Positions 1 to 60,000 of a stretch of 60,000 bases of DNA are shown here, piece after piece. The position numbers were made by a program, and so were the translations under genes. Every line of letters begins with the position of its first letter. Positions within the stretch are counted from its first letter, which is position 1. Source of the DNA: Bolinopsis microptera (Eukaryota > Ctenophora > Tentaculata > Lobata > Bolinopsidae). Below the pieces are notes generated by a model. The model saw only the letters and a program-made list of their open reading frames with translations, did no database searches and was not told the DNA's origin. Where the stretch lies: assembly GCF_026151205.1 (NCBI RefSeq), contig NC_087075.1, forward strand, positions 3,386,359-3,446,358. Reading direction: 5' to 3'.

Positions 1-92
1 GTTTAGCAGCAATCGCTGCTTCTACTGCACGATGTCAGCTGAACAAAGAGGTAGCTTGGATCAGGAACACAAGAAAGTTGATTGCACTTGGA
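1..92 (+). CDS. Partial exon copy at the left window edge
   Basis: The window opens inside an exon, at the GTTTAGCAGC segment that lies about 74 bases into the 165-bp consensus. The remaining part (module residues from about 25 onward, including CTACPAD and SDCTW in consensus) runs to a GTAAGT donor at 93. About 70-75 bases of its 5' part are outside the window, which shows the array extends further left. Single-base losses put this copy out of frame as read. Confidence 0.8.
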
Positions 93-3000
93 GTAAGTTG
101 TTGTTCCTAAAACTTGGAGGGACCGAAGGGGTTCATCCTGAAATTTATGTTAATCTTAGAAATGCAATTAATGTGTGCGATAAACATAGGACTGAAATAC
201 TGACGTCAACAGCAAAGTTAGTATTCTGTACATTAATTGGTATTACTATCGTTTTATGAGGTCCCATCACGATTGCTCGAAAGGAATTCCTGTGAATGAA
301 ATGACAACGATTGTATATGAAACAACCACCCGCACACACTTTGACACTTATCCACTATTCAAATAAAAAGCGAACCATCCTAAAAGGGTATTCGAATCTT
401 AAACTGCTTTCCAGCGGGCTGAACTTGCAGTTCTATAAAATACTTGACTAAACTCGCTATACTTGCAGATGATTGTGTGCGGGTCCAGTTCTGGATCTGT
501 CAATGTGGCTGTCAAGCCTGTCCGGCAGATCATGAGTTTAGCAGCAAACGCAGCTTCTACCTGCACGGCTTGTCCAGCTGCATGAGGTAGCCTCTGGATC
601 AGGAACACCAAGAAAGTGACTGCACATGAGTAAGTTGTTGTTTCCTAAAAATTGGAGGAGACCGAAGAGGGTTCATCCTATATTTATGTTAATTCTCCAA
701 GAATGCAATAATGTGTGCTGAATAAAAATAGACTGAATACTGACGTCAACAAGCAAAGTGTTAGTATTTGTACATAATTTGGTTATTACTATACGTTTTG
801 AGGTACCATCACAGATGCTCGAAAGGAATTCTGTGAATGAATGCAAACTTTTGTATTATGAAACACCACACCGCACACAACTTTGACACTTATTCCAATT
901 TCAAATAAAAGCGAAACCTTCCCTAAAAGGGTACTTCGATTCTTAAATGCTTGCCAGGCGGCTGAAACTTGCTGTTCTAAATACTTGACTAAACCTCGAC
1001 TATACTTGCAGAAGATTGTGTTGCGGGCAGTATCTGGATCAGTCAAGTGGCTGTCAAGCCTTGTCCGGAGGATAAATGGGTTTAGCAGCAAACGCAGCTT
1101 TCTACCTGCTCGCATGTCACAGTGACAAAGAGGTAGCCTCATGGTTACAGGAAACAGAAACGTGATGCACATGGTGTAAGTTGTTGTTTCCAAAAATTGG
1201 AGGGGAGCCGTAGGGGTTCATCCTGAATTTATGTTAATCTTGAAATGCAATAATGTGTGCGAATAAACATAGACTGAAATACTGACGTCAACAGAAAGTT
1301 TAGGTATTTGCAATAATTGGTATTACTATCGTTTATGAGGTCCCATCACAGATGCTCGAAAGGAATTCTGTGATGAAATGCAACTATTGGTATATGAACA
1401 CACCCGCACACACTTTGACATTATCCAATATTCAAATAAAAGCGGAACCATCCCTAAAAGGGATAATTCGAATCTTAAACTGTTGCCGGGGCTGAAACTT
1501 GCTGTTTCTATAAATTACTGACTAAACTCGACTTAACTTGCAGAAGATGGTGTTTGAGGGCCAGTATCTGGATCAGTCAAGTGGCTGTCAAGACTGCTGT
1601 CCGGCAGATCAATGGTGTTTAGCAGCAAAGCAGCTTCTACACTGCACGGCTTGTCCAGCTGCAAAGAGGGTAGCCTCTGGATCAGGAACACAAGCAAGTG
1701 ATGCCATGGAGTAAGTTGTTGGTTTCCTAAAAAATTGAGGGACCGAAGGGGTTCATCCTGAAATTTATGTGAATTTAGAAATGCAATAGTGTGCGATATA
1801 AACAGACTGATATATGACGTCAACAAGGCAAAGTTTAGAATTTGTACAATAATTGGGATTATATAAGTTTATGAGGTCCCATAAGATGCTCGAAAGGAAT
1901 TCCTGTGACAATGAAATGCAACTATTGTATATGAACACCACCCGCACACACTTTTGACACTTATCCAATTATTCAATAAAAGCGAACATACCTAAAAGGT
2001 ACTTCGAATCTTTAACTGCTTGCCAGCGGCATGAACTTGCAGTTCTATTAATACTTGACTAAACCGACATATACTTGCAGAAGTTGTGTTGCGGGCCAGT
2101 ATCTGGATAGTCAAGTGCTGCAAGCCTGTTCGGCAGATCAATGGAGTTAGCAGCAACGCAGCTTCTACTGCACTGGCAAGTACAGCTGACAAAAAGAGGT
2201 AGCCTCTGGTCAGGAACACAAGAAAGTGACTTCACATGGAGTAAGTTGTTGTTTCCTAAAAAATTGGAGGACCGAACGGGGGTCATCCTGAAATTTATGT
2301 TAATCTTAGAAATGCAATAATGTGTGCGAATAAACATAACTGAAATACTGGACGTCAACAAGCAAAGTTTAGTTTTTGTACAATAATGGTTATTACTATA
2401 GTTTATGAGTTCCCATCACAGCATGCTTCGAAAGGAAATAACTGTTGATATGAAATGCAAAAATTTGTATATTGACACCACCCGACACACTTTGACACTA
2501 TCCAATATTTCAAATAAAGCGAACCATCCCTAAAAGTACTTCGAATCTAAACTGCTTGCCAGCGCTGAAACTTGCAGTTCATAAAATACTTGACTAAACT
2601 CGATATACTTGCAGAAGATTGTGTTGCGGGCCAGTATCGGATCAGTAAAGTGGCTTTTCAAGCCTGTCCGGCAGATCAATGGAGTTTAGCAGCAAACGCA
2701 GCTTCTACCTGACGGCATTGTCCAGCTGACAGAGGTAGCCTTGGATCAGGAACACAAGGGGTGGAAGTGAACTGCACATGGAGGAACGTTGTTGTTTCAT
2801 AAAAAATTGGAGGGGACGATGGGGTTAATCCTGAAATTTTTGTTAATCTTAGAAATGCAAAATGTTGTGTCGAATAAACATAGACTGAAATTACTGACGT
2901 CAACAAGCCTAGTTTTAGTATTGCTACATAATTGGTATTACTATAGTTTATGAGGTCCCATTCACAGATTGCTCGAAGGAATTCCTGTGAATGAAATGAA

Positions 3001-6000
3001 CTTATTGTATATGACACCACCCGCACACACTTTGACACTTATCAATATTCAAATAAAGCGAACCATCCCTAAAGGGATATTCGAATCTTAAATGCTTGCC
3101 AGCGGCTGTAACTTGACAGGTTCCTTTAAATACTTGAATAAACTCGCTTTACTTGCAGGAAAAATGTGTTGCGGGCCAGTATCTGGATCAGTCAAGTGGC
3201 TTGTCAAGCCTGTCCGGCAGATCAATGGAGTTTAGCAGCAAAGCAGCTTTACCTGCACGGCATGTCCAGCTGACAAGTGGTGCATCTGGATCAGGAACAC
3301 AGAAATGTGACTGCACATGGAGTAAGTTGTTGTTCCTAAAAATTGGAGGACCGTAGGGGTTCATACTGAAATTTATGTTAATCTTAGAAATTGCATAATG
3401 GTGTGCGAATAACATAGTCTGAAATACTGACGTCAACAAGCAAAGTTTTGTATTTGTACAATAATTGTATTTAGTACTATCGTTATGAGGTCCCATCACA
3501 GATGCTCGAAGGAATTCCTGTGAATGAAATGCAACTATCTGTATATGAACACCACCGCACACACTTGACACTTATCCATATTCATATAAAAGCGAAACCA
3601 TCCCTAAAGGGTACTTCGAATCTTTAAAACTGCTTGCATGCGGATGAAAACTTGCAGTTCTATAAATACTTGGACTAAACTCGATATACTTGCAGGAGAT
3701 TGTTGTTGCGGGCAGTATCTGGATCAGTCAAGTGGCTGACAAGCCTGTCCGGCAGATCAATGGAGTTTTAGCAGCAAAACGCAGCTTTACCTGCACGCAT
3801 GTCCAGCTGACAAAGAGGTAGCCTCTGGATCAGGAACACCCATAAAGGGGGGGAAAAAATAAAAAAAGGGTGAATGCACAGTGAGTAGTTGTTGGTTTTC
3901 CTAAAAATTGGAGGGGACGAAGGGGTTCATCCTGAAATTTATGTTAATCTTAGAAAATGAATAATGTGTGCGAATAAAATTAGACTGACTTACTGACGCC
4001 TCAACAAGCAAGGTTAGTTTTTGTCAAAATTGGTATTACTATACGTTTTTGAGGTCCCATCACAGATGCTCGAAAGAATTCCTGTGAATGAAATGCAACT
4101 ATTGTATATGAACACCACCCGCAAACCTTTGACTCTTTATCCAATATTCAAATAAAAGCGTATCATCCCTAAAAGGGTACTTCGAATCTCTTAAACTGCT
4201 TGCCGCGGCCTGAATACTTGCAGTTCTATAAATACGTGACTAACTGACTATACTTGCAGAAAGATTGTGTTGCGGGCCAGTATCTGGATCAGTCAAGTGA
4301 GCTGTCAAGCCTGTCCGGCAGATCAATGGAGTTTAGCAGCAAACGCAGCTTCTACCTGCACGGCATGTCCATGCTGACAAAGAGGTAGGCCTCTGGATTC
4401 AGGATCACAAGAAAGTGGCTGCACATTGGGTAAGTTGTTGTTTCCAAATATTGGAGGGACCGAAGGGTGTTCATCACTCGAAATTATGTTAATCTCCCCG
4501 TAGATATGCAATAATTGTGTGCGAATAAACATAGACTGAAATACTGACGGTCAACAAGCAAAGTTAGTATTTGTACAATAATTGGTATTACTATACGTTT
4601 ATGAGGTCCCATCACAGATGCTCAAAGGATTCCTGTGAATGAAATGATACTATTGATTATGAACACCACCGCACACACGTTGACACTTATCCAATATAAA
4701 ATAAAGACAGAACCATCCCTTAATGGGTACTTCGACTTAAACTGCTTGCAGCGGCTGAAACTTGAGTTATATAAATACTTGACTAACTCGACTATACTTG
4801 CAGAAGATTGTGTGGGGCCAGTATCTGGTTCAGTCAAGATGTGCTGTCAGCCTGTCGGCAGCAGATCAATGGAGTTTAGCAAGATAACGCAGCTTCTACC
4901 TGCACGGCATGTCAGCTGACAAAGAGTAGCCTCGGATCAGGAACACAAGAAAGTGACTGCACATGGAGTAAGTTGTTGTTCCTAAAGTTGGAGGGACCGA
5001 AGGGGTTCATCCTGAAATTATGTTATATCTTAGAAATGCATAATGTGGCGAATAACATAGACTGAAATACTGCGTCAACAAGCAAAAGTTAGTATTTGTA
5101 CAATATTGTTTACTTTACGTTTATGACCGGTCCCATCACAGATTGCTCGGGAAAAGGAATTCCTGTGAATGAAATGCAACTATTGTTATGAACACCACCA
5201 CGCACCCTTTGCACTTATCCAATATGCAAATAAAAGCGAACCATCCTAAAAGGGTACTTCGAATATTTAACTGCCTTGCCAGCGGCTGAAAACTTGCAGT
5301 TCTATAAATACTTGACTAAATCGTCTTATACTTGCAGAAGATGTGTTGCGGGCCAGTATCTGGGATCAGTAAGCTCGGCTGTCAAGCTCCTGTCCGCAGA
5401 TCAAATGAGTTAGCAGCAAACGGCAGCTTCTACCTGCACGCATGTCAGCTGAAAGGAGGTAGCTCTGTTCAGGAACACAAGAAAGTTGACTGCACATGGA
5501 GTTAAGTTGTTGTTCCTATAAATGGGAGGGGCCGAAGGGGTTCATCCTGAAAATTTTATGTAATCTTAGAAATGCAATTATGTGTGCGATTAAACATAGG
5601 TTGAAATACTGCGTCAACAAGCAAAGTTTAGTTATTTGTAAATAATTGGTATTACTATACGTTTATGAGGTCCCATCACAGATGCTCGAAAGGAATTCCG
5701 TGAATGAAATGCAACTATTGTATAGACACCACCGCACACACTTTGCACTTATCCAATATTCAAATAAAAGCGAAAACCATCCCTAAAAGGGTACTTCGAA
5801 TCTTAAAACATGCTTGACCGCGGCTGAAACTTGCAGTTCTATAAATACTTGACTAAAACTCGACTATACTTGCAGAAGATTGTGTTGCGGGCCAGTATTG
5901 GTCATGTCAAGTGGCTGTCAAGCCGTCCGGCAGATCTATGGTGGTTTAGCAGCAAACGCAGCTTCTACTGCACGGCATGTCCAAGTGACAAGAGGTAGCC

Positions 6001-9000
6001 TCTGGATCAGGAAACACAAGAAATGTGACATGCACATGGAGAAGTTGTAGTTTCCTATAAAAAATTGGAGGGTCCGAAGGGGTTCATCCTGGAAATATAT
6101 GTTAATATTAGAATATGCAATATGTGTGGAAATAATATCGGATGAAATACTGACGTCCACACAGCAAAGTTTGTATTTGTACAATAATTGGTATTACTAT
6201 TACGTTTTTTGAGTCCCATCACAGATGCTCGAAAAGGAATTCCTGTGATGAAATGCAACTATTGTAATATGAAACACCCACCCGCACACACTTGACACTT
6301 TCCAAATTCAAATAAAAAGAGAAACATCCCTAAAGGGTACTTCGAATCTTAAACGCTTGCCAGCGGCTGAAAACTTGCAGTTCTATCAAGACTTGACTAA
6401 ACTGACTATACTTGCAGAAGTTGTGTTGCGGGCAAGTATCTGGATCTGTCAACGTGGCTGTCATGCCTGTCACCGGGCAGATCATGGAGTTTTAGCAGCA
6501 AACGCTGCTTTCTACCTGCACGGCATGTCAGCTGACAGAGGTAGCCTCTGGATCAGGAACACAAGAAAGTGAATTGCACATGGGAAAGTTGTTGTTTCCT
6601 AAAATTGGAGGGACGAAGGGGTTGCATTGAATTTATGTTAATCTTAGTTATGCAATAATGTGTGCGAAATAAACATAGACTGAAATTATGACGTCAACAT
6701 GCATAAGTTTAGTATTTGTTACAATAATTGGTTTACTATACGTTTATGAGGTCCCATCACTGATGCTCGAAAGGAATTCTGTGAATGAAATGAACTATTG
6801 TTATAGAACACCACCCGCACACACTTTGACACTTATCCAATATTCATAATAAAAAGCGAACCATCCTAAAAGGGTACTTTCGAATCTTAAGCTGCTTGCA
6901 GCGGCTGAAACTTGCAGTTCTATAAATACTTGACTAAAACTCGGACTTACTTGCAGAAGATTGTAGTTGCAGGGCCAGTATCTGGATCAGTCAAGGTGGC
7001 TGTCCAGCCTGTCCGGCAGATCAATGGAGTTTAGCAGCAACGCAGCTTCTACATGCACGGCTGTCCAGCTGAACAAGAGGTGCCTCTGGATCAGGTACAC
7101 AAGAATAGTGACCTGCACACATGGTGTAAGTTGTTGTTCCTAAATATTGGAGGGACCGAAGGGGTTCTTCTGAAAATTTATGTTAATTCTTAGAAATGAA
7201 TTATGTCGTGCGAATAACCATTAGACGGATATACTGAGGTCAACAAAGCAATGTTTAGTATTTGTACAATAATTGGTTTTACTATAGTTTATGAGGTCCA
7301 GCTACAGATGCTCTCGAAAAGGAATCCTGTGAATGAAAATGCAACTATTGTATATGAACACAAGCACACTTTGACACTTATCAACTATTTCAAATAAAGC
7401 GAACCATCCCTAAAAGGGTACTTTCGATTCTTAAACTGCTTGCCAGCGGCTGAAACTTGCAGTCTTTAAATACTTGACTAAATCGACTATACTTTGCTGA
7501 AGATTGTTTGCGGGACAGTATCTGGATCAGTCAAGTGGCTGTCAAGCCTTGACCGGCAGATCAATGTAGTTTTAGCAGCAAACGCAGCTTCTACCTGCAC
7601 GCATGTTCAGTGACAAGAGGTAGTCTGGATCAGGAAACAAAAAGTGACTGCACATGGAGTAAGTTGTTGTTTCCTAAAAATTGGAGGGACCGAAGGGGTT
7701 CATCCTGAATTTTATGGTTATTCTTAGAAATGCAATAATGTGTGCGAAATATCATAGACTTGAAATACTGACGTCAAACAAGCAAGTTTAGTATTTGTAC
7801 ATTAATTGGTTATTACTATACGTTATTAATGTGGTCCCATCACAGATGCTCGAAAGGATTCTGTGAATGAAATGCAAACTATTGTATATGAACACCACCC
7901 GCACTCACTTTGAACTTATCCAATATTCAAATAAAGGAACCATCCCTAAATGGGTACTTCGAATCTTAAACTGCTTGCCAGCGGCCTGAAAATTGCAGTT
8001 CTATAAATACTTGACTAAAATCGACTATACTTGCAGAAGATTGTGTTGGGGCCAGTATCTGGGATCAGTCAAGTGGTGTCAAGCCTGTCGGCAGGATCAA
8101 TGGAGTTTAGCCAGCAAACGCAGCTTCTACCTGCACGCATGTTCACAGCTGACAAAGAGGTAGCTCTGGATCAGGAACACCATGAAAGTGACTGCACATG
8201 GAGTTAGTTGGTTGTTTCCTAAAAATTGGAGGACGAAGGTGGTTCATCCTGAAACTTTATGTTAATTTAGAAATGCAATAATGTGGCGAATAAACATAAC
8301 TGAAAATGACGTCAACAAGCATAGTTTTGTATTTGTACAATAATTGGTATTACTATCGATTTATTGAGGTCCCATCACAGATGCTCGAAAGGATTCTGTG
8401 ACGAAAATGCAAAACTATTGTATATGAACACCACCCGCACACAACTTTGACACTTATCCAATATTCAAATAAATGCTAACCATCCTAAAGGGTACTTCAG
8501 AATCTTAACTGCTTGCCAGCGGCTGAAACTTGCAGTTCTATTAAAATACTTGACTAACTCGACTATACTGCAGAAGTTTGTGTTGCGGGCCAGTAATCTG
8601 GATCAGTCAGTGGCTGTCAAGCTGTCTCGGCATATCAATGGAGGTTTTAGCAGCAAACGCAGAAAATCTTCTACCTGCACGGCATTGTCCTAGCTGACAA
8701 AGAGGTAGCATCTGGATCAAGGAAACCAAGAAAGTGACTGCACTGAGTAAGTTGTGTTTCCTAAAAATTGGAGGACGCAGGGGTTCATCCTGAAATTTAT
8801 GTTAATCTTAGAATGCAATAATGTGTGGAATAAAACATAGACTGAATTACTGACGGCACAAGCTAAGTTTAGTATTTGTACAATAATTGGTTATTACGAA
8901 GTTTATGGAGGTCCTCATCACAGATGCTCGAAAGGAATTCCTGTGAATGAAATGCCCAACTATTGTATATGAACACCACCCGCACACACTTTGACACTTA

Positions 9001-9828
9001 TCCAATATTCAAATTAAAAGCGAACCTTCCCTAAAAGGGTACTTCGAATCTTAAACTGGCTTGCCAGCGGCTGAATCTTGCAGTTCTATAAAACTTGGAC
9101 TAAACTCGACTATACTTGCAGAAGATTGTTGTTGCGGGCCTGTATATGGATCAGTCTAGTGGCTGTCAAGCCTGTTCGGCCGATCATTGGAGTTTGCAGC
9201 AAACGCAGCTTCTACCTGCACGGCATGTCCAGCTGACAAAGAGGTTAGCTCTGGATCAGGAACACAAGAAAGGGTACTGCACATGGAGTAAGTTGTTTTT
9301 TCCTAAAAAATTGGAGGGACGAAGGGGTTCATCCTGAAATTTTATGTTTAATCTTAGAAATGCATAATGTGTGCGAATAAACATTAGACTGAAATACTGA
9401 CGTCAACAGCAAAGTTTAGTATTTGTACAATATAATTGGTATTTCTATACGTTTATGAGGTCCCATCACAGATGCTCGAATGGAATTCCTGTGAATGAAA
9501 TGGCAACTATTGTATTATGAACACCACCCGCACACACTTGACACTTTATCAATATTCAAATAAAGCGAAACATCCCTAAAAGGGTAATTCGAATCTTTAA
9601 ACTGCTTGCCCGCGGCGAAACTTGCAGTTCTATAAATACTTGACTAAACTCGACTATATTGCTGAAGATAGTGTTGCGGGCCAGTATCTGGATCTGTCAA
9701 GTGGCTGTCAAGCCTGCGGCAGATTCATTGGGTTTAGCAGCAACGCAGCTTCTACCTGCACGGTATGTCCAGCTCGTCAAAGGGGTAGGCTCTGGATCAG
9801 GAACACAAAAAGTGACTGCACAATGGAA
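1..9828 (+). CDS. Exon copies 0-18 (coordinates listed)
   Basis: Exons as read from acceptor to donor: 1-92 (partial; the 5' part is off the window), 469-629, 1012-1175, 1544-1710, 2081-2240, 2615-2782, 3159-3321, 3696-3884, 4260-4429, 4804-4967, 5338-5500, 5876-6040, 6418-6583, 6957-7125, 7500-7658, 8037-8202, 8574-8746, 9122-9287, 9665-9828. The gaps between them are introns. Oddities: the exon at 3696 has a G/A-rich burst near its 3' end; the acceptors before 7500 and 9665 read CTG instead of CAG; the donor after 5876-6040 reads GAAG for GTAAG and the one after 2615-2782 reads GGAACG. Lengths from 159 to 189 around the consensus 165 reflect indel noise. Ends are accurate to a base or two where the junction itself is damaged. 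Confidence 0.75.
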
Positions 9829-48800: not shown

Positions 48801-51800
48801 TTAATCTTAGAAATGCAATAATGTGTGCGAATAAACATAGACCTGAAAAACTGGACGTCAACAGGCAAAGTTTAGTAGTTTTTGTACTATAATTGGTATT
48901 ACTATACGTTTTCTGGGTCATCACAGATGCTCGAAAGGAATTCTGTGAATGAAATGCAACTATTGTATTGTACACACCGCACACACTTTGACACTTATCC
49001 AATTATTCAAATAAAAGCGAACCATCCAAAATGGTACTTCGAATCTTAAACTGCTTGCCAGCGGCTGAAACTTGCAGTTCTATAAATACTTGGACTAAAC
49101 TCGACTATACTTGCAGAAGATTGTGTTGCGGGCCAGTATCTGATCAGTCAAGTGCTGTCAAGCCTGTCGGCAGAATAATGGGAGTTTAGCAGCAACGCAG
49201 CTTCTACCTGCACGGCATGTCCAGCTGACAAAGAGGTAGCCTTGGTTTCAGGAACACAAGAAAGTGATGCACATGGAGGTAGTAGTTGTTTCCTAAAAAT
49301 TGGACGGGACCGAAGGGTGGCGGTTCATCCTGAAATTTATGTGAATCTTAGAAATGCATTAATGTGTGCGAATAAACATAGACTGACATACTGTGACGTT
49401 TCCAACAAGCAAAGTTTAGTATTTGGTACAATAATTGGTATTACTATTCGTTTATGAGTCCCATCAAAGATGCTCGAAAAGGAATTCCTGTGAAAGAAAT
49501 GGCAACTATTGTATATGAACACCACCCGCACACACACTTTGACACTTTTCCAATATTCAATTAAAGCCGAAACCATCCTAAAAGGGTACTTCGAATCTTA
49601 AAAACGCTTGCAGCGGCTGAACTTGCAGTTCTATAAAATACTTGACTAAACTCGACTTTACTTTTTTTTTTTTACACGAAGATTGTGTTGCGGGCAGTAT
49701 CTGGATCAGGTCAAGTGGCTGTCAAGCCTGTCACGGCAGATCAATGGGTTTAGCTGCAAAACGCAGCTTCTCACCTGCACGGCATGTCCATGCTGTCAAT
49801 GAGTGGCCTATGGATCGAGAACACATGGAAAGTGATGCACATGGGTAAAGTTGTTTGTTTCCTAAAAATTTGAGGACCCGAAGGGGTCATCCTGAAATTT
49901 ATTGGTAATCGTAGAAAATGCAATCATGTGTTCGAATAAACATGACTGAAATACTGACGTCAACAAGCAAAGTTTTAGTATTTGTACAATAATTGGTAGT
50001 ACTATACGTTTATGAGGGTCCAATCACGATGCTCGAAAGGATTCCTGTGAATGAAATGCAACTATTGTATATGCAAACCCACCCGCACACACTTGCATTA
50101 TCCCAATATTCAAATAAAAGCGAACCTTCCCTTAAAGGGTAACTTCGACAATTATTAAAACTGCTTGCCAGCGGCTGAAACTTGACAGTTCTATTACTTT
50201 ACTTGACAAACTCGACTATACTGCAGAAGATTGAGTTGCGGGCCAGTATCTGGATAGCTCTCAAGTGGCTGTCAGGCCTGTCCGGCAGAATTCAATGGAG
50301 TTTAGCAGCACCGCAGCTTCTACCTTGCACGGCATGTCCAGCTGACAAAAGAGTTGCCTCGGGATCAGGGAACACAAGAAAGTGACTGACATGATTAAGA
50401 GTTGTTTCCTAAATTTGGAGGGACGAAGGGGTCATCCTGAAATTTATGTTAATCTTAGAATGCAATAATGTGTGCGAATAAACATAGCTGAAATAATGAG
50501 TAACAAAGCAAAATTTATTAATTTGTACAATATTTGGGATATACTATCGTTTATGAGGTCCATCACAGATGCTCGAAAGGAATTCCTGTGAATGAAATGC
50601 AACATTGTTTATGAACACACTCGCACACACTTTGACATTAATTTCCAATATTCAAATAAATAGGACATCTCTAAAAGGTACTTCGAAATCATTAAACTGC
50701 TTGCCAGCGGCTGAACTTGCAGTTCTATAATACTTGACCTAAACTCGACTATACTTGCAGAAGATGTGTTGCGGGGCCAGTATCTGGATCAGTCAAAGTG
50801 GCTGTCCAAGCCTGTCCGGCTGATCAATGGTAGTTTAGCAGCAAACGCAGTTCTACCAGCACGGCATGTCCAGCTACAAAGTGGTAGCCTCTGGATCCAG
50901 GAACACAAGAAAGTGACTGCACATGGAGTAGTGTTGTTCCTAAAAATTGGGGACCGTAAGGGGTTCATCTGGATATTTATCGTTAATATTTGTAAATGCA
51001 ATAATGTGTGCGAATAAATAGACTGAAATACTGACGTCAACAAGCAAAGTTTAGTATTTGTACAATAATTGGTATTACTATACGTTTATGAGGGTCCATC
51101 ACAGATGCTGCGAAAGGAATTCTCGTGAATTGAAAAGCAACTTTGTATATGAACACCACCCGCACACACTTTGACATAATCCAATATCAAATTAAAGCGA
51201 TCCATCCCTAAAAGGGTACTTCGAATCATTAAACTGCTTGCCAGGCTGAAACTTGCAGTTCTATAAATACTTGACTAAACTCGACTATACTCTGCAGAAG
51301 ATTGTGTTGCGGGGCCAGTATCTGGATCAGCTCAAGTGGCTGTCAAGCCTGTCGGCAGATCAATGGGTTAGAGCAAATCGCAGCTTCTACCTGCACGGCA
51401 TGGCCAGTGCAAAGAGGTAGCCTCTGGATCTGGAACACAAGAAAGTGAGGCACATGGAGTAAGTTGTGTTTCCTAAAAATTGGAGGGACCGAAGGGGTTC
51501 ATCTGAAATTTTATGTTTAAATCTTAGAGAAATGCAATAAGGTGTGCGATAAACATAGACTGAAAATACTGACAGTCAACAAGCAATGTTTAGTATTATG
51601 TACATAATTGGGATTACTATACGTTTATGAGGTCCCATCACAGATGCTCGAAAGGAATTCTGTGAATGAAATGCAAACTGTTGTATATGAACACCAACCG
51701 CACACACTTGAACACTTATCCAATATTCCAGTATAAAAAGCGAACCATCCCTAAAAGGTCTTGAATCTTAACTGCGTGCCAGCGGCTGAAACTTGCAGTT

Positions 51801-53990
51801 CTATAAATACTTGACTAAACTCGACTATACTTGGCAGAAGATTGTGATTGCGGGCCAGTATCTTGGATCGTTCAAGTGGCTGCAAGCTGTCCGGCAGATC
51901 AATGGAGTTTTGCAGCAAACGCAGCTTCTACCTTGCACGGCAGTCCAGCTGTCCACGAGGTGCCTCTGGATCAGGAACACAAGAAAGTGTCTGCACATGG
52001 AAGTAAGTTGTTGTTTCCTAAAAATGGAGGACCGAAGGGGGTTCATCCTGAAATTATGTTAATCTTTGAAATGCATTAATGTGTGAGAATAAACATAGCA
52101 CTGAAATACTTGACGTCAACAAGCAAAGTTTAGTATTTGTACAATAATTTGGTTATTACTTATACGTTATGAGGTTCCCTTCCAGTTGCTCGAAAGGAAT
52201 TCCTGTGAATGAATGAACCTATTGTATATGAACACCACCCGCACACACTTTGACATTATCCAATTATTCAAATAAATAAAGCGAACCATCCCTAAAAAGG
52301 GTACTTCGATTCTTAAACTGCTTGCCAGCGGCTGAAACTTGAGTTCTATAAATACTTGACTAAACTCGACTATACTTTGCAGAGATGTGTTGGCGGGCCA
52401 GTATCTGTATCAGTCATAGTGGCTGTCAAGCCTGTCGGCAGATGCAATGGAGTTAGCAGCCAAAAGGCAGCTTCTACCTGCACGGCATGTCAGGTTGACT
52501 AAGAGGTAGCCTCTGGATCAGGAACACAAGAAGTGACTGCACATTGAGTAAAGTTGTTGTTGCCTAAAAATTGGAGGGAACCGAAGGGGTTCATCCTGAT
52601 ATTTATGTTAATCTTAGAAATGCTATATGTGTGAGATAACATTAGACTGAATTACTGACGTCACCAGCAAAGTTAGTTATTTGTACAATAATTGGTATTA
52701 CTATACGTTTATGTGGTCCATCACAGTGCTCGATAGGGATTCCTGTGAAGGAAATGCAACTATCTTGTATATGAACACCACCGCACACACTTTGACACTT
52801 ATCCAAATATTCAAATAAAGCGAAAAAACCAACCCTAAAAGGGTATTCGAAGCATATAACTGCTTGGCCAGCGGCTGAAACTTGCGTTCTATAAATATTG
52901 ATAAACTTCGGGACTATACTTGCAGAAGATTGTGTGCGCGGCTGTATCTGGTTCAGTCAAGTGGCTGTCAAGCTGTCCGGGCAGATCATTGGAGTTTTAG
53001 CAGCAAACGCCAGCTTTACCTGCACGGATGTCAGCTGACAAAGGGTAGCCTCTGGTTCAGGAACACAAGAAAGTGACTGCAATGGAGTAAGTTGTTGTTT
53101 CCTAAAATTTTGAAGGGACCGATGGGTTCATCCTGAAATTTATGTTAATTCTTAGAAATGCAAATAATAGTGTGGAATAAACATAGACCTGAAATATGAC
53201 GTATACAAGCAAAGTTTGTATTTGTCAAATAATGGTATACTATACGTTTATGAACGGTCCCATCACAGATGCTCGAAAAGAATTCCTGTGAAATGAATTG
53301 CTACTATTGTATATGAACACCACCCGCCAAACACTTTGACACTTATCCAATGTTCAATTAAAAGCGAACTTCCCTAAAGGTACATTCGATCTTAAAAACT
53401 GCTTGCCAGCGGCTGAAAAATTGCAGTTCTTAAATACTTGACTAAACTCGACTATACTTGCAGAAGATTGTGTTGCGGGCCAGTATCTGGATCAGTTAAG
53501 TGGCTGTTCAAGCTGTCGGCAGATCAATGGTGTTTTTTAGCAGAAATCGCAGCTTCTACCTGCACGGCATGTCCAGCTGACAAGAGTAGCCTCTGGATCA
53601 GGAACACAAGAAGTGACTGCACATGGAGTAAGTTGTTGTTTTCCTAAAAAATTGGCAGGGACCGAAGGGTTCATCCTGAAATTTATGTATATCTTAGAAA
53701 TGCAATAATGTGTGCGAATAAACATACGACTGAAATACTGACGTCAACAAGGCAAAGGTTTGTATTTGTTACAATAATTGGTATTACTTATACGTTTATG
53801 AGGTCCCATCAAGATGCTCCGAAAGGATTTCTGTGAATGAAATGCAATATTGTATTTGAACACACCGCATCACTTTGATCTTTTATCCAATATTCAAATA
53901 AAAGTCGAACCTTCCCTAAAAGGGTACTTCGAATCTTGAAAATGCTTGCCAGCGGCTGAACACTTGCAGTTCTATAAATACTTGACTCCC

Positions 53991-54021
<31 letters not shown>

Positions 54022-57000
54022 TAAAAAAAAAACAAAAAAAAAAAAAAAATAAAAAACAAAAAAAAAAAAAATAAAAAAAAAACAAAAAAAAAAACTCGAC
54101 TATACTGCAGAAGTTTGTTGTTGCGGGCCAATTATATGGTTCAGTCTCAAGTGGCCCTGTCAAGCCTGTCCGGCCGTTCAATGGAGTTTAGCAGCAAAAC
54201 GCAGTTCTACCTGCCGGCATGTCAGCTGACAAAGAGGTAGCCTCAGGATCAGGAACCAAGAAAGTGATGCACATGGAGTAAGTTGTGTTTCCTAAAAATT
54301 GGGAGGGTCCGAAGGGGTTCATCCTGAAATTTCATGTTAATCTTAGAAATGCAATAATGTGTGCGAAATAAACATAGACGAAATACTGACGTCAAACAAG
54401 CAAAGTTTTGGATTTGTACAATATTGGTATTACTATAGTTTATGAGGTTCCAATCACAGATGCTCGAAAGTATTCTCGTGATTGAAATGCTAACTTTGTT
54501 ATTTGAACACACCCGCAAACACTTTGACACTTATCAATATTCAAATAAAAGGAAACCCATCCTAAAAGGGTACTTGAATCTTAAACATGCTTGCCAGCGG
54601 CTGAAAACTTGAGTCCTATAAATACTTGACTAACTAGACTATACTTGCAGAAGATTGTGTTGGGCCTGTATATGGTCAGTTCAAGTGGTGTCAAGCCTCT
54701 GTCCGGGCTAGATCAAATGGAGAAGTTTAGCAGAAACGCAGCTTCTACCTGCCGCTTGTCCAGCTGAAAAGAGGTAGCCTCTGATCAGGAACACAAGAAG
54801 TGACTGCACATGGGAGTAAGTTTGTTGTTTCTAAAAAAATTTGGAGGGAACGAAGGGTTCATCCTGAAATTTATGTTAATCTTAGAGAAATGCAAATAAT
54901 GTGTGCGAAAATAAACATAGACGACATACTGACGTCAACAAGCAAAGTTTAGTATTTGTACAATAATTGGTATTACTATTACTGTTTATGATGTCCATCA
55001 CAGATGCTCGAAAGAATTCCTGTGAATGAAATGCAACTATTGTATATGAACACCACCCGCACACACTTTGACACTTATCCAATATTCAAATAAAGCGACC
55101 ATCCCCTAAAAGTGTACTTCGAAATCTTAAACTGCTTGCCAGCGGCTGAATCTTCAGTTTCTATAAATACTTGACTAAACTCGACTATACTTGAGATGAT
55201 TGTTGTTGCGGGCCAGTATCTGGATAGGTCAAGTGCTGTCAAGGCCTGTCCGGCAGATCAATGAGTTTAGCAGCATAACGCAGCTTCTACCTGCACGGCA
55301 TGTCCAGTGACAAAGAGGTAGCCTCTGGATGAGAAACACAGAAGTGGACGCACATGGGAGTAAGTTGTTGTTTCCTAAAAAATTGGAGGACCGAAGGGGT
55401 TCATCCTGAAATTTATGTTAATCTTAGAGATGCAATAATGTGTGCGAATAAAATAGACTGAAATACTGAGTCAACAGCAAAGTTAGTATTTGTACAATAT
55501 TTGGTATTACTATACGTTTTTGAGGTCCCATCACAGATGCTCGAAAGGATTCCTGTGAATGAAATGCTACTATTGTATATGTAACTCAACGCCACACACT
55601 TTGACACTTATCCAATATTCAAATTATAAGCGAACATCCCTAAAAAGGAGTTCTTCGAATCTTAAAATGCTTGCCAGCGGCTGAAACTTGCAGTTCTCTA
55701 AATACTTGACTAAACTCGACTATACTTGCAGAGATTGTGTGGGGCCAGTATCTGGATCAGTCATGTGGCTTCGTCAAGGCCTGTGGAAGATCAATGGAGT
55801 ATTTATGCAGCACAAACGCTGCTTTACCTGCTCACGGCATGTCCAGCTGACAAGAGGTTGCCTTCTGGAATCAGGAATCACAAGAAAGTGACTGACATGG
55901 TAGTAGTAAGTGTTGTTCCTAAAATTGCGAGGGTACCGAGGGGTTCTTCCTGAAATAGTATGTTAATCTTAGAAATGGCTATAATGTGTGCGAATAAACA
56001 TAGACTGACATACTGACGTTCAACAAAGCAAAGTTTAGTATTTGTACCAGAATTGGTTATACTTTACGTTTATGAGGGTTCCCATCACAGTTGTCGAAGG
56101 GGGAAATTCCTGTTTTGAATGAAAATGCAACTATTGTATATGGGAACACCACCCCGCACACCTTTGACACTTTTCCCAATATTCAATTAAAGCGAACCAT
56201 CCCTATTAAGGGTACTTCGAATCTTAAACTGCTTGCCAGCGGCTGAAACTTGCGGTTCTATAAATACTTGACTAAACTCGACTATACTTGCCGTAGATTG
56301 TGTTGCGGCCAGTATCTGGATCAGGCAAGTGGCTGTCAAGCCTCATGTCCAGGCAGATCAATGGAGTTTAGCTGCAAACGCAGGCTTCTACCTGCACGGC
56401 ATGTCCAGCTGAACAAAGAGGTAGCTCTGGTTCAGGAACAAGAAAGTGCACTGCCAGCATGGAGTAAGTTGTTGTTTCCTAAAAATTGGTGGGACCGAAG
56501 GGTGTTATTCTGGAAATTTATGTTAATCTTAGAAATGCAATAATGTGTGCGAATAATCATAGACTGAAATACTGTCGTCAACATAGCAAAGTTTGTATTT
56601 GTACAATAATGGTATTACTATACGTTTATGATGGTCCAATCTACAGATGCCGAAAGGAAGATTCCTGTGAATGAAATGCAACTTATTGTATATGAACACC
56701 ACCGCACACACTTTTGACACTTATCCAATATTCAATAAAAGCGAACATCCATTAAATGGGTACTTCGAATCTTAAACTGCTTGCCAGCGGCTGAACTTGC
56801 AGTTCTATATATTCTTGATCTAAACTCGACTATACCTTGCAGAAAGATTGTGTGCGGGCCTGTTCTGGATCAGTCAAGTGGCTGTGTCGTATCAAGCCTG
56901 TACGGCAGATCAATGGAGTTTAGCAGGCAAACTGCTGCTTCTTACCTGCACGGCAATGTCAGCTGACAAAAGGTAGCCTCTGGATCAGGAAAAACACAAA

Positions 57001-59787
57001 GAAAAGGGTACTGCAATCGGAGTAAGTTTGTGTTTCCTAAAAATTGGAGGACCCGATAGGGGTTCATCATGAAATTTATGTTTTATTTAGAATGCAATAA
57101 TGTGTGCGATTAAATCATAGACTGAAATACTGACGTCAACAAGCAAAGTTTAGTATTTGTACAATAATTGGTTTTACTATACGTTTATGGCGGTACCATC
57201 ACAGACTGGTCGAAAGGAATTCCTGTGAATGAAAATGCTACTATTGTATTATTGAACACCACCCGCTCACACTGTGACAACCTGATCCAAATATTCAAAT
57301 AAAAGCGAACCATCCCTAAAAGAGGGTACTTCGAATCCTTAAACTGCTTGCCTGCGGCTGAATCTTGCCAGTTCTATAGTACTTGTACTAAACTCGACTA
57401 TACTTGCAGATGATTGTTGTTGCGGGCCAGTATCTGGATCAAGTCATGTGGCTGTCAAGCCTGTCCGGCAGTTCAATGGAGTTTTGCAGCTACGCAGCTT
57501 CTACCTGCACGATGTCCACTGACAAAGAGGGTAGGCCTCTGGATCCAGGAACACAAGAAAATATAAAAGGTTTCGACTGCACAGGGAGTAAGTTGTTGGT
57601 TTCCTAAAAATTGGAGGGACCGAAGGGTAGTTATCCTGAAATTTATGTTATTCTTTAGATAATGCAATAATGTGTGCGAATAATCATTGACTGAAATACT
57701 GACGTCACAAGCTAGTTTAGTATTTGTACAATAATTGGTATTAATTACGTTTATGGAGGTCCATCACAGGATGCTCGAAGGAATTCCTGTGAATGTAATG
57801 CAATATTGTATATGAACACCACCCGCACTACATTATGACACTTATCAAAGATTCATATAAAAGCGAAACATCCTAAAAAGGTACTTCGAATCTTTATAAC
57901 TGCTTTGCCAGCGGCGAAAACTTGCTCAGTTCTATATCTACTTGACATAAACTCGACTTTACTTGCTGAAGATTGTGTTGCGGGGCCAGTATCTGGATCT
58001 GTCATGTGGCTGTCAAGCCTGTCCGGCAGATCAATGGAGTTTAGCAGGCAAACGCAGCTTCTACCTGCACCGGCATGTCCAGCTGACAAAGAGGAGCCTC
58101 TAGGATCAGGAACAAAAGGAAAGAGATGCACATGGAGTAAGTTGTTGTTTCCTAATAAATTGGAGGGACCGAAGGGGTTCATCCTGAAATTATGTTAATC
58201 TTTAGAAATGAAATATTGTGTTGCGAATAAAACATAGACTGAAATATGACGGTCACAAGCCAAAGTTTTTAGTATTTGTACAATAATTGGTTATTTTATA
58301 TACGTTTGGCGATATGAGCGTCCCATCACAGTTGCTCGAAAGGATTTCCTGTGAATGGAAATGAATAGCTATTGTATATGAAACCAACCGCACACACTTT
58401 GACAATTATCCAATATTCAATTATAAGCGGAACCATCCCCTAAAAGGTTACTTCGTATCTTAAACTGCTTGCCAGCGGCTGAACTTGCCAGTTCTATAAA
58501 TACTTGACTAAACTCGACTATACTTGCAGAAGATTGTGTTGCGGGACAGTATCTGGATCAAGTCAATGGCTGTCAAGCTGTCCGGCAGATCAATGGAGTT
58601 TGCAGCAAACGCAAAGCTTCTACCTGCACGGCTGGTCCAGTGACAAGAGGTTGCCTCTGGATCAGGAACACAAGAAATTGACTGCACAGGGAGAAGTGTT
58701 GTTTCCTAAAAATTGGAGGGACCGAAGGGGTTTCATCCTGAAATTTTATGTTAATATTAGAAATGCAATATGTGTTGCGAATAATCAGAGACTGAAATCT
58801 GAACGTCAACAGCAAGGTTTAGTATAGTGTACAATTAATGGTATTTCTATACGTTTTTGAGGTCCCATCACAGATGCTCGAAAGGGATTTCCTGTTGATT
58901 GAAATGCAAACTTATGTATATGACACCCTCCGCCACACTTTGACACTTATCCAATATTCAAATAACAAGCGAACCATCCCTAAAAGGGTTCTTCGTATCT
59001 TAAACTGCTTGCCAGCGGCTGAACTGCAGTTCTATAAATACTTGACTAAACTCGACTATACTTGCAGAAGATTGTGTTGCGGGCCAGTATTGGATCAGTC
59101 AAGTGGCTGTCAAGCCTGTCGGCAGATCAATGTGTTTAGCAGCAAACGCAGCTTCTACCTGCCGGCATGGTCAGGCTGACATAGAGGTAGCCTCTTGGAT
59201 ACAGGAAACTCAAGAAAGTGATGACTTGGAGTAAGTTGTTGTTTCCTAAAATAGGAGGGACCGAGGGGGTTTCATCCACTGAAATTTATTGTTAATCTAG
59301 AAATGCAATAATGTGGTGCGGAATAAAACATAGCTGAAATACTGACGTTCAACATGCAAAGTTTGTATTTTGTACAATGAATTGGTATTACTATACGTTT
59401 ATGAGGTCCCATCACAGATGCTCGATAAGGAATTCCTGTGAATGAAAATGCAACTATTGTATATGTACACCACCCGCACCTCACTTTGACACTTATCCAT
59501 TTCAATAAAAGCGAAACATCCTAAAAGGGTACTTCGAATCTTAAAAACTGATTGCCTGCGGCTTGATACTTGACTGTTTATATAAATACTTGACTAAAAC
59601 TCGACATTAACTTGCAGGAGATTGTGTTGCGGGCCAGTTTCTGGAAGCAGTCAAGTGGCTGGTCAAGCCTGCCCGGCAGATCTTGGAGTTTAGCAGCAAA
59701 CGCAGCTTCTACCTGCACGGCATGTCCAGTGACAAGGAAGGTAGCTCTGCTGGTTAAGGATACCACAAGAAAGTGACGCACTTGGAT
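1..59787 (+). CDS. Internal part of a giant gene with ~110 Cys-rich GCC2/GCC3-like exons
   Basis: Seen: every unit carries a 165-bp segment (55 codons) bounded by TTGCAG and GTAAGT. In the consensus it is open in one forward frame only; the other two meet stops. The frame starts at the third exon base, and the last exon base begins the next codon, so exon-exon joins give A+AA (Lys) and all introns are phase 1. Counting that Lys as residue 1, cysteines fall at 3, 15, 18, 33, 36 and 53. Short motifs include AGQYLD (5-10), GCQACPADQW (14-23), CTACPADK (33-40) and SGSGTQESDCTW (44-55). The two CxACPAD segments look like an internal half-repeat. Known: GCC2/GCC3 or ephrin-receptor-like modules have CxxCPxG...CxxCPxG...C patterns, occur in extracellular proteins, and symmetric phase-1 exons are typical of shuffled extracellular domains. 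Inferred: a surface or secreted protein with a very long disulfide-bonded repeat stalk. The start, signal peptide and C-terminus lie outside the window. Few or no copies translate uninterrupted because of indel noise. Confidence 0.75.
93..98 (+). other. Splice donor GTAAGT (first of ~110)
   Basis: GTAAGT directly follows TTGGA at the end of the partial first exon; the consensus context is CACATGGA|GTAAGTTGTTG. It matches the major spliceosomal donor and recurs once per unit, for example at 13095 and 44878. Single copies show GTTAAG, GTATG, GTAGTT or GGAAG, consistent with noise. Confidence 0.7.
201..208 (+). promoter_or_regulatory. TGACGTCA palindrome (CRE-like), one per intron
   Basis: The eight-base palindrome TGACGTCA lies at this position within consensus ACTGACGTCAACAAG and recurs once in each intron, for example at 3428-3435. 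It is identical to the consensus cAMP-response element bound by CREB/ATF bZIP factors in animals. Whether it is bound here is unknown; it may be chance fixed by copying a single ancestral unit. Some copies have lost a base within it. Confidence 0.3.
3844..3870. other. G/A-rich burst within an exon copy
   Basis: Between AGGAACACC and TGAATGCACA the expected short ACAAGAAAG segment is replaced by runs of G and A. It is found in this copy only. It frameshifts and lengthens the exon at 3696-3884. Likely a sequencing artefact. Confidence 0.65.
10199..19615 (+). CDS. Exon copies 19-36 (coordinates listed)
   Basis: Exons: 10199-10363, 10755-10925, 11293-11447, 11825-11995, 12372-12538, 12919-13094, 13470-13664, 14040-14207, 14578-14741, 15110-15277, 15659-15823, 16215-16384, 16762-16923, 17292-17461, 17844-18008, 18382-18542, 18911-19077, 19452-19615. 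The exon at 13470 is about 30 bp too long because of an A-rich burst at 13551-13577. The acceptor before 14040 reads CTG, the one before 15110 has lost its C (TTGAG), and the one before 18911 reads GCATG. The donor after 18382-18542 is the most damaged here, with the GT unreadable, so that end is approximate. The donor after 16215-16384 has an extra GT, leaving a two-base uncertainty. Confidence 0.75.
12908..12918 (+). other. Splice acceptor TATACTTGCAG (representative)
   Basis: TATACTTGCAG precedes AAGATTG in nearly every unit. The lariat branch A is probably in the TTGACTAAACTCGAC stretch just upstream. A second ACTTGCAG lies 38 nt further upstream in each intron; using that one would bring in TTCTATAAA and create a stop at the second complete codon after the join, so the downstream AG must be the productive site. 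Confidence 0.65.
12919..13094 (+). CDS. Representative Cys-rich exon: splice signals and module layout
   Basis: This copy has a clean acceptor (TATACTTGCAG, ending at 12918) and a clean donor (GTAAGTTGTT, from 13095). The first two bases complete a Lys codon begun by the previous exon and the terminal A starts the next one, which is phase 1 on both sides. It is 176 bp against the 165-bp consensus because of about a dozen single-base insertions (extra C, T and A in short runs), partly offset by a deletion, so it is frameshifted as read. It illustrates why no long continuous frame appears although the consensus is fully open. Confidence 0.75.
13551..13577. other. A-rich burst within an exon copy
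   Basis: After GTTTAGCAGCAAA the sequence runs into A tracts with short T interruptions and then resumes at CGGCAGCTT. It adds about 30 bp to the exon at 13470-13664 and occurs in this copy only. Confidence 0.65.
14208..14577 (+). other. Representative intron (consensus 375 bp, phase 1)
   Basis: This intron, between the exons at 14040-14207 and 14578-14741, is close to consensus. It opens with GTAAGTTGTTG and closes with TATACTTGCAG. The consensus intron is about 37% G+C against about 52% for the exon and is punctuated by stops in the module's frame. Landmarks in order: a TTGGAGGGACCGAAGGGG stretch, the palindrome TGACGTCA, TTGTACAA, an EcoRI site, the small inverted repeat CCCT-AAA-AGGG, TTCGAATC, an upstream ACTTGCAG, TATAAATA, and a candidate branch region TTGACTAAACTCGAC 15-30 nt before the acceptor. 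The pyrimidine tract is weak. The roughly 109 introns (one per unit) are as alike as the exons, so the repeated unit is exon plus intron together. Confidence 0.7.
19991..30111 (+). CDS. Exon copies 37-55 (coordinates listed)
   Basis: Exons: 19991-20158, 20541-20712, 21092-21259, 21637-21803, 22203-22368, 22752-22922, 23310-23503, 23883-24049, 24429-24598, 24975-25145, 25535-25707, 26084-26251, 26642-26806, 27183-27350, 27735-27896, 28282-28449, 28829-28991, 29363-29526, 29939-30111. The exon at 23310 carries a G-rich insert at about 23386-23418. Acceptors before 22203 and 23883 read GAAG or TGAAG in place of GCAG, the one before 25535 reads CTG, and the one before 26642 ends in AC. The donor after 25535-25707 reads GGAAG. 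These changes are scattered singly and do not recur in neighbouring copies, which fits read errors better than loss of splicing. Confidence 0.75.
21877..21896. other. T-rich burst within an intron copy
   Basis: The expected GAAATGCAATAATG is interrupted after GAAATG by TTTTAA and a run of T, then CAATAATG follows. It is a private insertion with no repeat boundaries. Confidence 0.6.
23386..23418. other. G-rich burst within an exon copy
   Basis: After the ATCAA(T)GG segment the copy shows a G run, CTTATAAAAAAAGGC and a G run of about 12, then returns to CAACGCAGC. It replaces the GTTTAGCAG stretch of the exon at 23310-23503. Private to this copy. Confidence 0.65.
29828..29864. other. T-run/A-run burst within an intron copy
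   Basis: At the GGTACTTCGAATC segment this copy has a T run, ATTGATTCGG and an A run before returning to an altered CTTAAACTG. It is about 30 bp longer than consensus. Two complementary runs (T then A) could fold, but nothing else marks it as a real element. Confidence 0.55.
30497..39979 (+). CDS. Exon copies 56-73 (coordinates listed)
   Basis: Exons: 30497-30668, 31053-31217, 31593-31756, 32145-32316, 32703-32872, 33251-33419, 33796-33954, 34343-34511, 34885-35050, 35428-35590, 35960-36127, 36513-36678, 37060-37225, 37610-37778, 38171-38333, 38722-38888, 39263-39425, 39813-39979. The acceptor before 37610 reads GCCGAG, with an extra CG. Donors after 31217 and 38888 read GTATG, and the one after 35050 reads GGAAG. 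The donor after 35960-36127 reads GTGTTAG, leaving a two-base uncertainty. Exon length varies between 159 and 172. Confidence 0.75.
32514..32524. other. G11 homopolymer in an intron copy
   Basis: CGAAAGGAATTCC reads CGAAA, eleven G, then AAATCC, destroying the EcoRI site of this unit. Private homopolymer error. Confidence 0.6.
36171..36186. other. GGGG-TTT-CCCCCCCC burst in an intron copy
   Basis: The consensus GAAGGGGTTCATCC is expanded to a G run, TTT and a C run before ATCC. The G and C runs are complementary and could hairpin, but the change is private to this copy. Confidence 0.55.
38102..38115. other. C/A-rich 14-bp insert in an intron copy
   Basis: The consensus GCCAGCGGCTGAAAC is split by CCCC, five A and CCCCA. 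Not seen elsewhere in the array. A comparable C/G-rich private insert sits at about 47959-47971 in the same intron segment of another copy. Confidence 0.5.
40355..49844 (+). CDS. Exon copies 74-91 (coordinates listed)
   Basis: Exons: 40355-40524, 40907-41072, 41454-41621, 41994-42159, 42531-42694, 43063-43231, 43613-43777, 44156-44324, 44715-44877, 45258-45426, 45810-45981, 46366-46531, 46918-47083, 47465-47632, 48025-48193, 48572-48740, 49117-49278, 49679-49844. The exon at 44156 begins with a doubled AAGAG. Acceptors before 43063 (GTAG), 43613 (GAAG), 46366 (TTGAG), 46918 (CTG) and 48572 (GAAG) each carry a change. The last exon here has its acceptor replaced by a poly-T run and ACACG, so its start is placed by homology to AAGATTG. 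The donor after 42159 reads TT for GT. Confidence 0.75.
46793..46815. other. T-run/A-run burst in an intron copy
   Basis: TATCCAATATTCAAATAAAAGCG here gains a TTTTTT-CCC run and extra A bases. Private insertion, similar in kind to the other bursts. Confidence 0.55.
49663..49678. other. Poly-T run replacing a splice acceptor
   Basis: Where other copies read TATACTTGCAG|AAGATTG, this one reads TTTACT, a run of T and ACACG before AAGATTG. The acceptor AG is absent as read. If real, the exon at 49679-49844 would be skipped, which is frame-neutral; a read error is more likely. Confidence 0.55.
50227..59787 (+). CDS. Exon copies 92-109 (coordinates listed)
   Basis: Exons: 50227-50394, 50761-50927, 51298-51458, 51838-52002, 52383-52547, 52926-53086, 53464-53627, 54111-54277, 54651-54815, 55196-55359, 55732-55905, 56294-56463, 56843-57021, 57410-57587, 57969-58136, 58530-58692, 59068-59230, 59618-59787. 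The intron before 54111 carries the long A-rich insert. The exon at 57410 has about 16 extra bases (57559-57574, A-rich then GGTTTC). The acceptor before 55196 lacks its C, the one before 56294 reads GCCG, and the one before 57969 reads CTG. The donor after 50394 reads TTAAG. The last exon is followed by 213 bp of ordinary intron up to the window edge, so the array continues. Confidence 0.75.
53988..54090. other. ~100-bp A-rich low-complexity insert inside an intron
   Basis: The consensus TTGACTAAACTCGACTATA is interrupted after TTGACT by CCCTTAT and then about 95 bases of almost pure A with single T or C interruptions, after which ACTCGACTATA resumes. No target-site duplication or 3'-transduced sequence accompanies it. 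It accounts for the single abnormally long unit (647 bp). It resembles a homopolymer burst in a raw long read more than a retroposed poly-A tail. It sits 20 bases upstream of the acceptor. Confidence 0.7.
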
Positions 59788-60000
59788 GTAAGTTGTTGTT
59801 TCCCTAAAAATTGGAGGGACCGACAGGGTTCATCCTGAAATTTATGTTATCTTAGAATGCAATATATGTGTTAGCGAATAAACATAGATGAAATACTGGA
59901 CGTAAACAAGCAAAGTTTAGTATTTGTACAATAATTGGTATTACTATCCGTTTATGAGGTCCCATCACAGGATGATCGAAGGAATTCCTGTGAAGAATTG

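Follow-up and report, generated by a model that had tools for sequence, protein, structure and literature searches.

The DNA analysed here, a window of 60,000 nucleotides from the lobate ctenophore Bolinopsis microptera, belongs in all likelihood to a multi-exon gene whose product is a very long extracellular protein built of modules, secreted or held at the cell surface, as judged from its sequence features. It spans C4:3386359-3446358 and consists entirely of 540-bp units arrayed head to tail. We searched a genome of 264,652,675 bases in 232 contigs, labelled C1, C2 and so on, and arrays were seen on contigs among C1-C13. A predicted ionotropic glutamate receptor in this genome has a 212-bit match to the ML032222a iGluR chains (256 residues), which come from the ctenophore Mnemiopsis. 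The unit of the C4 array, its frame, its splice-site sequences, the constraint on the encoded module, one in-phase neighbouring exon and the technical nature of the indels are matters of direct observation.

The array and the technical origin of its indels

The features to which the text refers are as follows.

Window 1..60000, + strand: tandem array of the 540-bp exon-plus-intron unit, of raw-read quality, with 109 unit boundaries
About C4:3359700 to 3454700: noisy patch enclosing the window
Window 469..629, + strand: first complete exon copy, acceptor TTGCAG at 463-468 and donor GTAAGT from 630; consensus 165 bp, phase 1-1
Window 630..1011, + strand: first complete intron copy, from GTAAGT to TTGCAG; consensus 375 bp
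Window 53995..54094, + strand: A-rich insert of about 100 bases in the 3' part of one intron, in the single unit of aberrant length (648)

The first acceptor of the window lies at 467-468 and the exon start at 469, in agreement with the initial annotation. Alignment of 107 of the 108 window units with MAFFT gave a consensus of 540 bp, composed of an exon of 165 bp and an intron of 375 bp. The 109 unit boundaries are spaced 480-620 bp apart in 107 of 108 cases, with a mean of 546.7, and the single spacing of 648 is caused by the A-rich insert. This insert is almost pure A, with an occasional T or C, and may be either a read artefact or a genuine insertion. Wrap-around identity to the unit is 90-92% per 5-kb bin, falling to 88% in the bin that holds the insert. 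The array was absent from the list produced by Tandem Repeats Finder, for which the longest period in the window was 500. The noisy patch as a whole contains 174 unit starts, although the first of these may sit at the ragged edge of the patch, since that unit alone carries 120 rare errors. A count of 267 units was set aside because the alignment had been forced through a 35-kb piece that is not array.

The initial annotation described frames shattered by indels. The assembly does read in this way, but the indels in the window are raw-read errors, and the assembled length of the array comes from gap filling; the frames look broken because the stretch was filled with raw, uncorrected sequencing reads. 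At the left edge of the C4 array there are seven clean units (C4:3311966-3315745), each exactly 540 bp and 99.4-99.8% identical to the window consensus. In the units that follow, identity drops to 89% and then to 73-81%. Towards the opposite end, the noise stops near 3454706, and the last copy there is again at 99.3%. In the 107 window units, the two parts have similar rates of insertions, deletions and substitutions, which amount to 5.0, 3.0 and 2.7% in the exon and to 4.0, 3.1 and 2.6% in the intron. The errors are asymmetric between the strands, with 93-146 A>T changes against 4-21 T>A changes per full 10 kb, and the excess is greater than 5-fold in every 10-kb block over 95 kb. They are also hardly shared: 2 of 14,878 unit pairs have four or more rare errors in common, and the maximum is five. 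When 170 of the 173 units were combined into 17 ten-unit block consensuses, no substitution or insertion survived and six recurrent single-base deletions remained. Excerpts of the paper on the matching B. microptera assembly give PacBio CLR libraries, assembly with wtdbg, gap closing with TGS-GapCloser and 13 chromosome-scale scaffolds (PMC10232365). The clean edge copies, the steady, asymmetric and unshared errors and the use of CLR gap closing together indicate that the frameshifts are read errors and that the true array is nearly uniform. If the array were instead a genuine pseudogene array riddled with indels, the frameshifts would be mutations, and the assembly as written does show such frames. 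We find this barely credible in view of the clean copies that adjoin the noisy patch, the steadiness and strand bias of errors that units hardly have in common, the block consensuses, which are clean except for the six recurrent deletions, and a second error style in the C4 array's first noisy patch.

As assembled, the C4 array consists of that first patch (3316000-3324100, about 78% identity), a 35-kb piece free of the unit and the 95-kb patch at about 90% that includes the window. Unlike the CLR-like patch, the first patch and a second stretch (L012:2000-3775) are written in a homopolymer-smeared style, and identity in the part that is array is about 78%. In the intervening piece (C4:3324200-3359700; L021-L025), which lies inside the assembled array, identity to the unit is at the level of shuffled sequence; where inspected (C4:3340000) it has shorter tandem repeats of its own, and it is likely a misplaced contig. 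A related question is whether the array, though genuine, was inflated by gap closing from a true number of a few tens of units. Gap closing was used for this assembly, both the left patch and the unit-free 35-kb piece look misjoined, and the length of the patch is carried by one or a few raw reads. Against inflation, a single error regime extends throughout the 95 kb, and the units do not have blocks of rare errors in common, so that no read looks to have been pasted twice. We therefore consider inflation unlikely. Palindromes from missed adapters are not the explanation either, since the unit boundaries in the window, like the rest of the patch as aligned forward, lie on one strand.

A six-cysteine module and its relatives

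Just one of the three forward frames is open in the exon consensus between the TTGCAG acceptor and the GTAAGT donor. It encodes DCVAGQYLDQSSGCQACPADQWSLAANAASTCTACPADKEVASGSGTQESDCTW, to which the exon ends, when joined, add a junction codon AAA (K), and this computed consensus, with no stop in frame, agrees with the 55-codon frame that had been proposed. The claimed cysteine spacing, C-x11-C-x2-C-x14-C-x2-C-x16-C, was recovered when it was read from the consensus peptide, and the claimed G+C contents of about 52% for the exon and 37% for the intron compare with consensus values of 51.5% and 36.8%. The exon begins AG/AA and ends A/GT (the slash marking the exon boundary), and both introns are therefore of phase 1. 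This arrangement of predicted splice sites around 165 bp, a multiple of three, is present in 7 of 7 clean copies on C4 and in 10 of 10 on C13. An open frame of 55 codons alone proves little, and the argument draws its weight from clean copies at other places in the genome.

Related arrays were found at ten further sites, on C1, C2, C3, C5, C8, C10, C11, C12 (two sites, C12a and C12b) and C13. An intact, indel-free exon copy is present at nine of these ten sites, and all three C5 copies are broken. Exon indels occur in 10 of the 72 units of the clean arrays (four in C3, three in C5, two in C12a and one in C8); these ten units were left out of the array comparison, and none was removed for a stop. 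The intact copies mostly retain TTGCAG, GTAAGT, the frame and the six cysteines, exceptions to the splice sites being one C12a copy that lacks the acceptor AG and another with an altered donor. One C10 copy is missing a base at the exon start. Between the chromosomes compared, the introns are at least 92% alike when indels are ignored. In the protein search, in which 150 of 619 candidates were scored, the window copies did not exceed 81% identity. The piece examined at C11:17940301-17942600 (L028) is filled by a further array, with numerous gaps and an identity of about 80-83%, perhaps another raw-read patch. Older relatives with shorter introns, 12 exons in all, are located at C10:11.74 Mb and C6:2.04 Mb.

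These relatives allow coding constraint to be assessed. On a tree of 33 distinct array exons we counted 96 replacement and 21 silent changes. None of the 96 replacements falls at the six cysteines (P=4.7e-6) and none at eight Gly/Pro/Trp sites, and there is no stop among the 33 exons (P=6e-4). For the older relatives omega is 0.32, with a log likelihood of -881.3 compared with -900.5 at omega=1 (better by 19); dN is lower than dS in 65 of 66 pairs among them and in all 396 pairs between them and the array exons. When the arrays bearing transposon pieces (C13, C1, C8 and C11) are left out, the remaining arrays give an omega of 1.13, indistinguishable from 1. Coding constraint, the absence of which would mark a non-coding satellite, is thus present in the unit. 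A weaker form of the satellite idea is that the DNA derives from a once-coding exon and that the C4 array is now amplified and non-expressed, with its copies unselected. Exon and intron are indeed equally homogeneous over 95 kb, so that the C4 copies themselves tell little about selection; omega is near 1 as just described, and some arrays, such as C5, contain decayed copies. We nevertheless judge this quite unlikely, because the 33 distinct exons have neither a stop nor a cysteine replacement, all seven clean copies at the left edge of C4 are intact and a phase-compatible thrombospondin exon comes next. The claim that the array is a gene and not a satellite is therefore well supported for the module, and the C4 array itself is a candidate for an expressed gene.

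The module was also described as GCC2/GCC3-like. A clean C4 copy aligns with PF07699, Ephrin_rec_like (GCC2_GCC3), along the full length of the profile (residues 5-52 on profile positions 1-48, all 48 positions) with E=3.2e-4, but its 20.9 bits fall below the curated score of 23.1. A better single-copy match is to PF23091, TNFR_ELAPOR1_6th (E=2.8e-6, 27.6 bits, under the curated 33.2), in an alignment that covers residues 2-38 only. All ten of ten clean copies match both profiles at E<0.01. The tandem-copy check suggested in the initial annotation also succeeded, in that three copies spliced together score 36.7 bits with PF07699 and 63.4 bits with PF23091, above both cut-offs; because the joined copies are identical, these higher scores are not independent evidence. 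The likeness to Pfam families is genuine but weak. A search of solved structures gave no PDB chain match for the module at E<=0.01. In the genome as a whole, PF07699 returned 1,299 first-look candidates, of which 150 were scored.

Exon divergence and transposon pieces at array edges

Between ten array consensuses the exon differs by 10.7% and the intron by 4.0% (means of 15-base bins), a ratio of 2.7. The step in divergence is sharp at the donor (0.049 to 0.013) and missing at the acceptor, the final intron bins (0.07-0.085) matching the first exon bin (0.064) in divergence. In 45 array pairs the mean dN is 0.135, dS 0.067 and intron divergence 0.039, with dN greater than dS in 42 pairs and dS greater than intron divergence in 30. 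Since silent sites are also above introns, selection acting on the protein cannot be the full explanation, and homogenisation of the introns or constraint on them has to be considered. Over all arrays omega is 1.52, with a log-likelihood gain of 1.57 over omega=1 (P about 0.08). For C13 and C11, with six distinct exons between them, omega is at the program limit of 50 with a gain of 6.4, the C1 and C8 exons being duplicates of those on C13. On the tree, dN/dS is 1.37 for all 54 codons (P=0.11). For residues outside the Cys and Gly/Pro/Trp sites it is 1.94 (P=0.006) over all arrays and 1.48 (P=0.08) without C13 and C11, in a split of residues that is partly post hoc, the cysteine set alone having been defined a priori. 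The formal tests for positive selection over all arrays are thus mixed; the array exons are accelerated, short of proven positive selection.

The greater likeness of introns than of exons between arrays raised the idea of a mobile intron, or introner. This was rejected, in that all of the listed intron matches (40 scored of 356 candidates) are inside known arrays. Among the matches to the intron core (100 of 156 listed), two that lay outside the arrays known at that point were inspected; one, at C11:17.94 Mb, is an array and the other, at C1:1.26 Mb, is a remnant that retains the end of the exon.

Pieces of a TIR transposon are present at the edges of arrays on five chromosomes, C1, C5, C8, C11 and C13 (loci L003, L007-L010, L031, L039-L045 and L052-L053). 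The element is non-autonomous, about 0.9 kb long, with inverted ends of about 40 bp. A 27-base stretch of its end has 730 forward and 745 reverse matches in the genome (1,475 with at most 2 mismatches), compared with 0 for a backward control, and among 100 matches listed the ends often form facing pairs about 0.8-0.9 kb apart. The arrays on C1, C8, C13 and C5 have a common 5' junction, in which unit position 368 is joined to element position 846, and those on C1 and C13 have a common 3' junction, in which unit position 482 is joined to element position 577. The C1 and C8 arrays are preceded by element positions 1-846, interrupted by an internal insert, and followed by 577-886 (C1) or 1-886 (C8). 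The C13 array is preceded by 712-846 and followed by 577-886; the C5 array has element parts before it only, and the C11 array has pieces before it and a full 0.9-kb element after it. In C8 and C11 introns the element edges meet TA, possibly part of a target-site duplication. A 45-bp piece is all that the flank of C12b contains, short pieces are present at the old C6 locus, and the element is absent from the readable 3' side of C4 and from the flanks of C3, C10, C12a and C2 that were examined; the 5' side of C4 is unreadable. Pack-TIRs have been described in animals, according to excerpts of the paper (PMC8277862), and captured exon DNA between TIR-element sequences is what we find at the C1, C8, C13 and C5 arrays and in part at C11.

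These observations may be combined in a tentative and, in our estimation, doubtful proposal, in which an abundant TIR transposon would move the exon together with its intron as a mobile cassette. In various extracellular genes the cassette would insert into phase-1 introns and be amplified there, giving arrays that range from a few copies to about 170, while residues outside the scaffold outpaced the introns. If this were true, a ctenophore would offer a view of exon shuffling while it happens, and the C4 array would be its largest product, with its own link to the transposon not visible.

The gene model and comparison with known systems

The exon directly after the C4 array (C4:3455336-3455518) is 183 bp long, of phase 1-1, and encodes a thrombospondin type 1 module (TSP_1, E=5.6e-9). 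Together with the clean copies and the constraint on the cysteine scaffold, this exon upholds the initial proposal of a symmetric phase 1-1 coding exon. Downstream of it there are stretches with weak, sub-cut-off Ig matches (best E=6e-4) and two further exons that are Ig-like by eye and have no Pfam match; an Ephrin_rec_like exon (E=4e-12) lies about 9 kb further on than TSP_1. The C13 array is followed by LDL-receptor-A exons (Ldl_recept_a, E=3.7e-9), and at C3 and one of the C12 sites a shared sushi-like exon comes next, 71% identical between the sites and without a Pfam match. With TSP_1, Ldl_recept_a or sushi-like exons as 3' neighbours, one module precedes different domains. An exon of 3n bases between phase-1 introns, with different neighbouring domains at different sites, is what characterises a shuffled module.

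Ephrin_rec_like exons also occur around the array in both orientations and in matching score groups, at C4:3272376(+), 3464227(+), 3492390(-), 3562312(-) and 3682291(-), which may be read as a local gene cluster or an inverted duplication. Upstream of the C4 array, L011:2982-4070 contains a reverse-transcriptase-like open frame, LINE-like by eye.

In the gene that we propose, a symmetric phase 1-1 exon for a module of 55 residues and six cysteines, related to the TNFR and ephrin-receptor-like group, would have been duplicated together with its intron, and the near-identity of the copies would be maintained by unequal crossing-over or gene conversion, that is, by concerted evolution. If all copies are joined in one transcript, in-phase splicing would yield a chain of 55-residue modules, about 9,600 residues for 174 of them, ahead of a thrombospondin-1 module, modules of Ig-like type and one that is ephrin-receptor-like. 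Such a protein would most likely serve as a long disulfide-rich stalk or adhesive rod.

In a search of open-licence papers, judged from their listings, none was recognisable as describing the array. If transcribed as drawn, it would give an early-branching animal a series of near-identical coding exons of unusual size. Given the raw-read quality of the assembled stretch, gene prediction would probably overlook it, a warning that genes can lie concealed, as seeming junk, in gap-filled regions of published genomes. The module, beside TSP_1, LDL-receptor-A and sushi-like exons and with introns so alike, offers an unusually fresh test case for exon shuffling.

As far as excerpts of the paper on animal Pack-TIRs describe them (PMC8277862), our cases resemble these in that non-transposon exon DNA is flanked by parts of a TIR element on C1 and C8, with relatives on other chromosomes. 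They differ in that the ctenophore candidates carry a whole exon-intron array, and in that the readable 3' side of C4 is without the element. With Ephrin_rec_like (PF07699) our module shares the six-cysteine pattern on profile positions 1-48, and a member above the cut-off lies downstream of the C4 array, but the clean C4 copy is itself sub-cut-off, and each module occupies one exon in a homogeneous array. TNFR_ELAPOR1_6th (PF23091) is the top single-copy match, but with a score under the cut-off and over part of the module. The PEVK region of titin belongs to a repetitive giant gene, in which near-identical small in-phase exons occur in long runs that are hard to assemble. The C4 array resembles it in these long runs of small in-phase exons and in the difficulty of assembly, and differs in that exon and intron of the C4 unit are both almost identical over about 170 copies and in that the module is a disulfide-rich extracellular domain.
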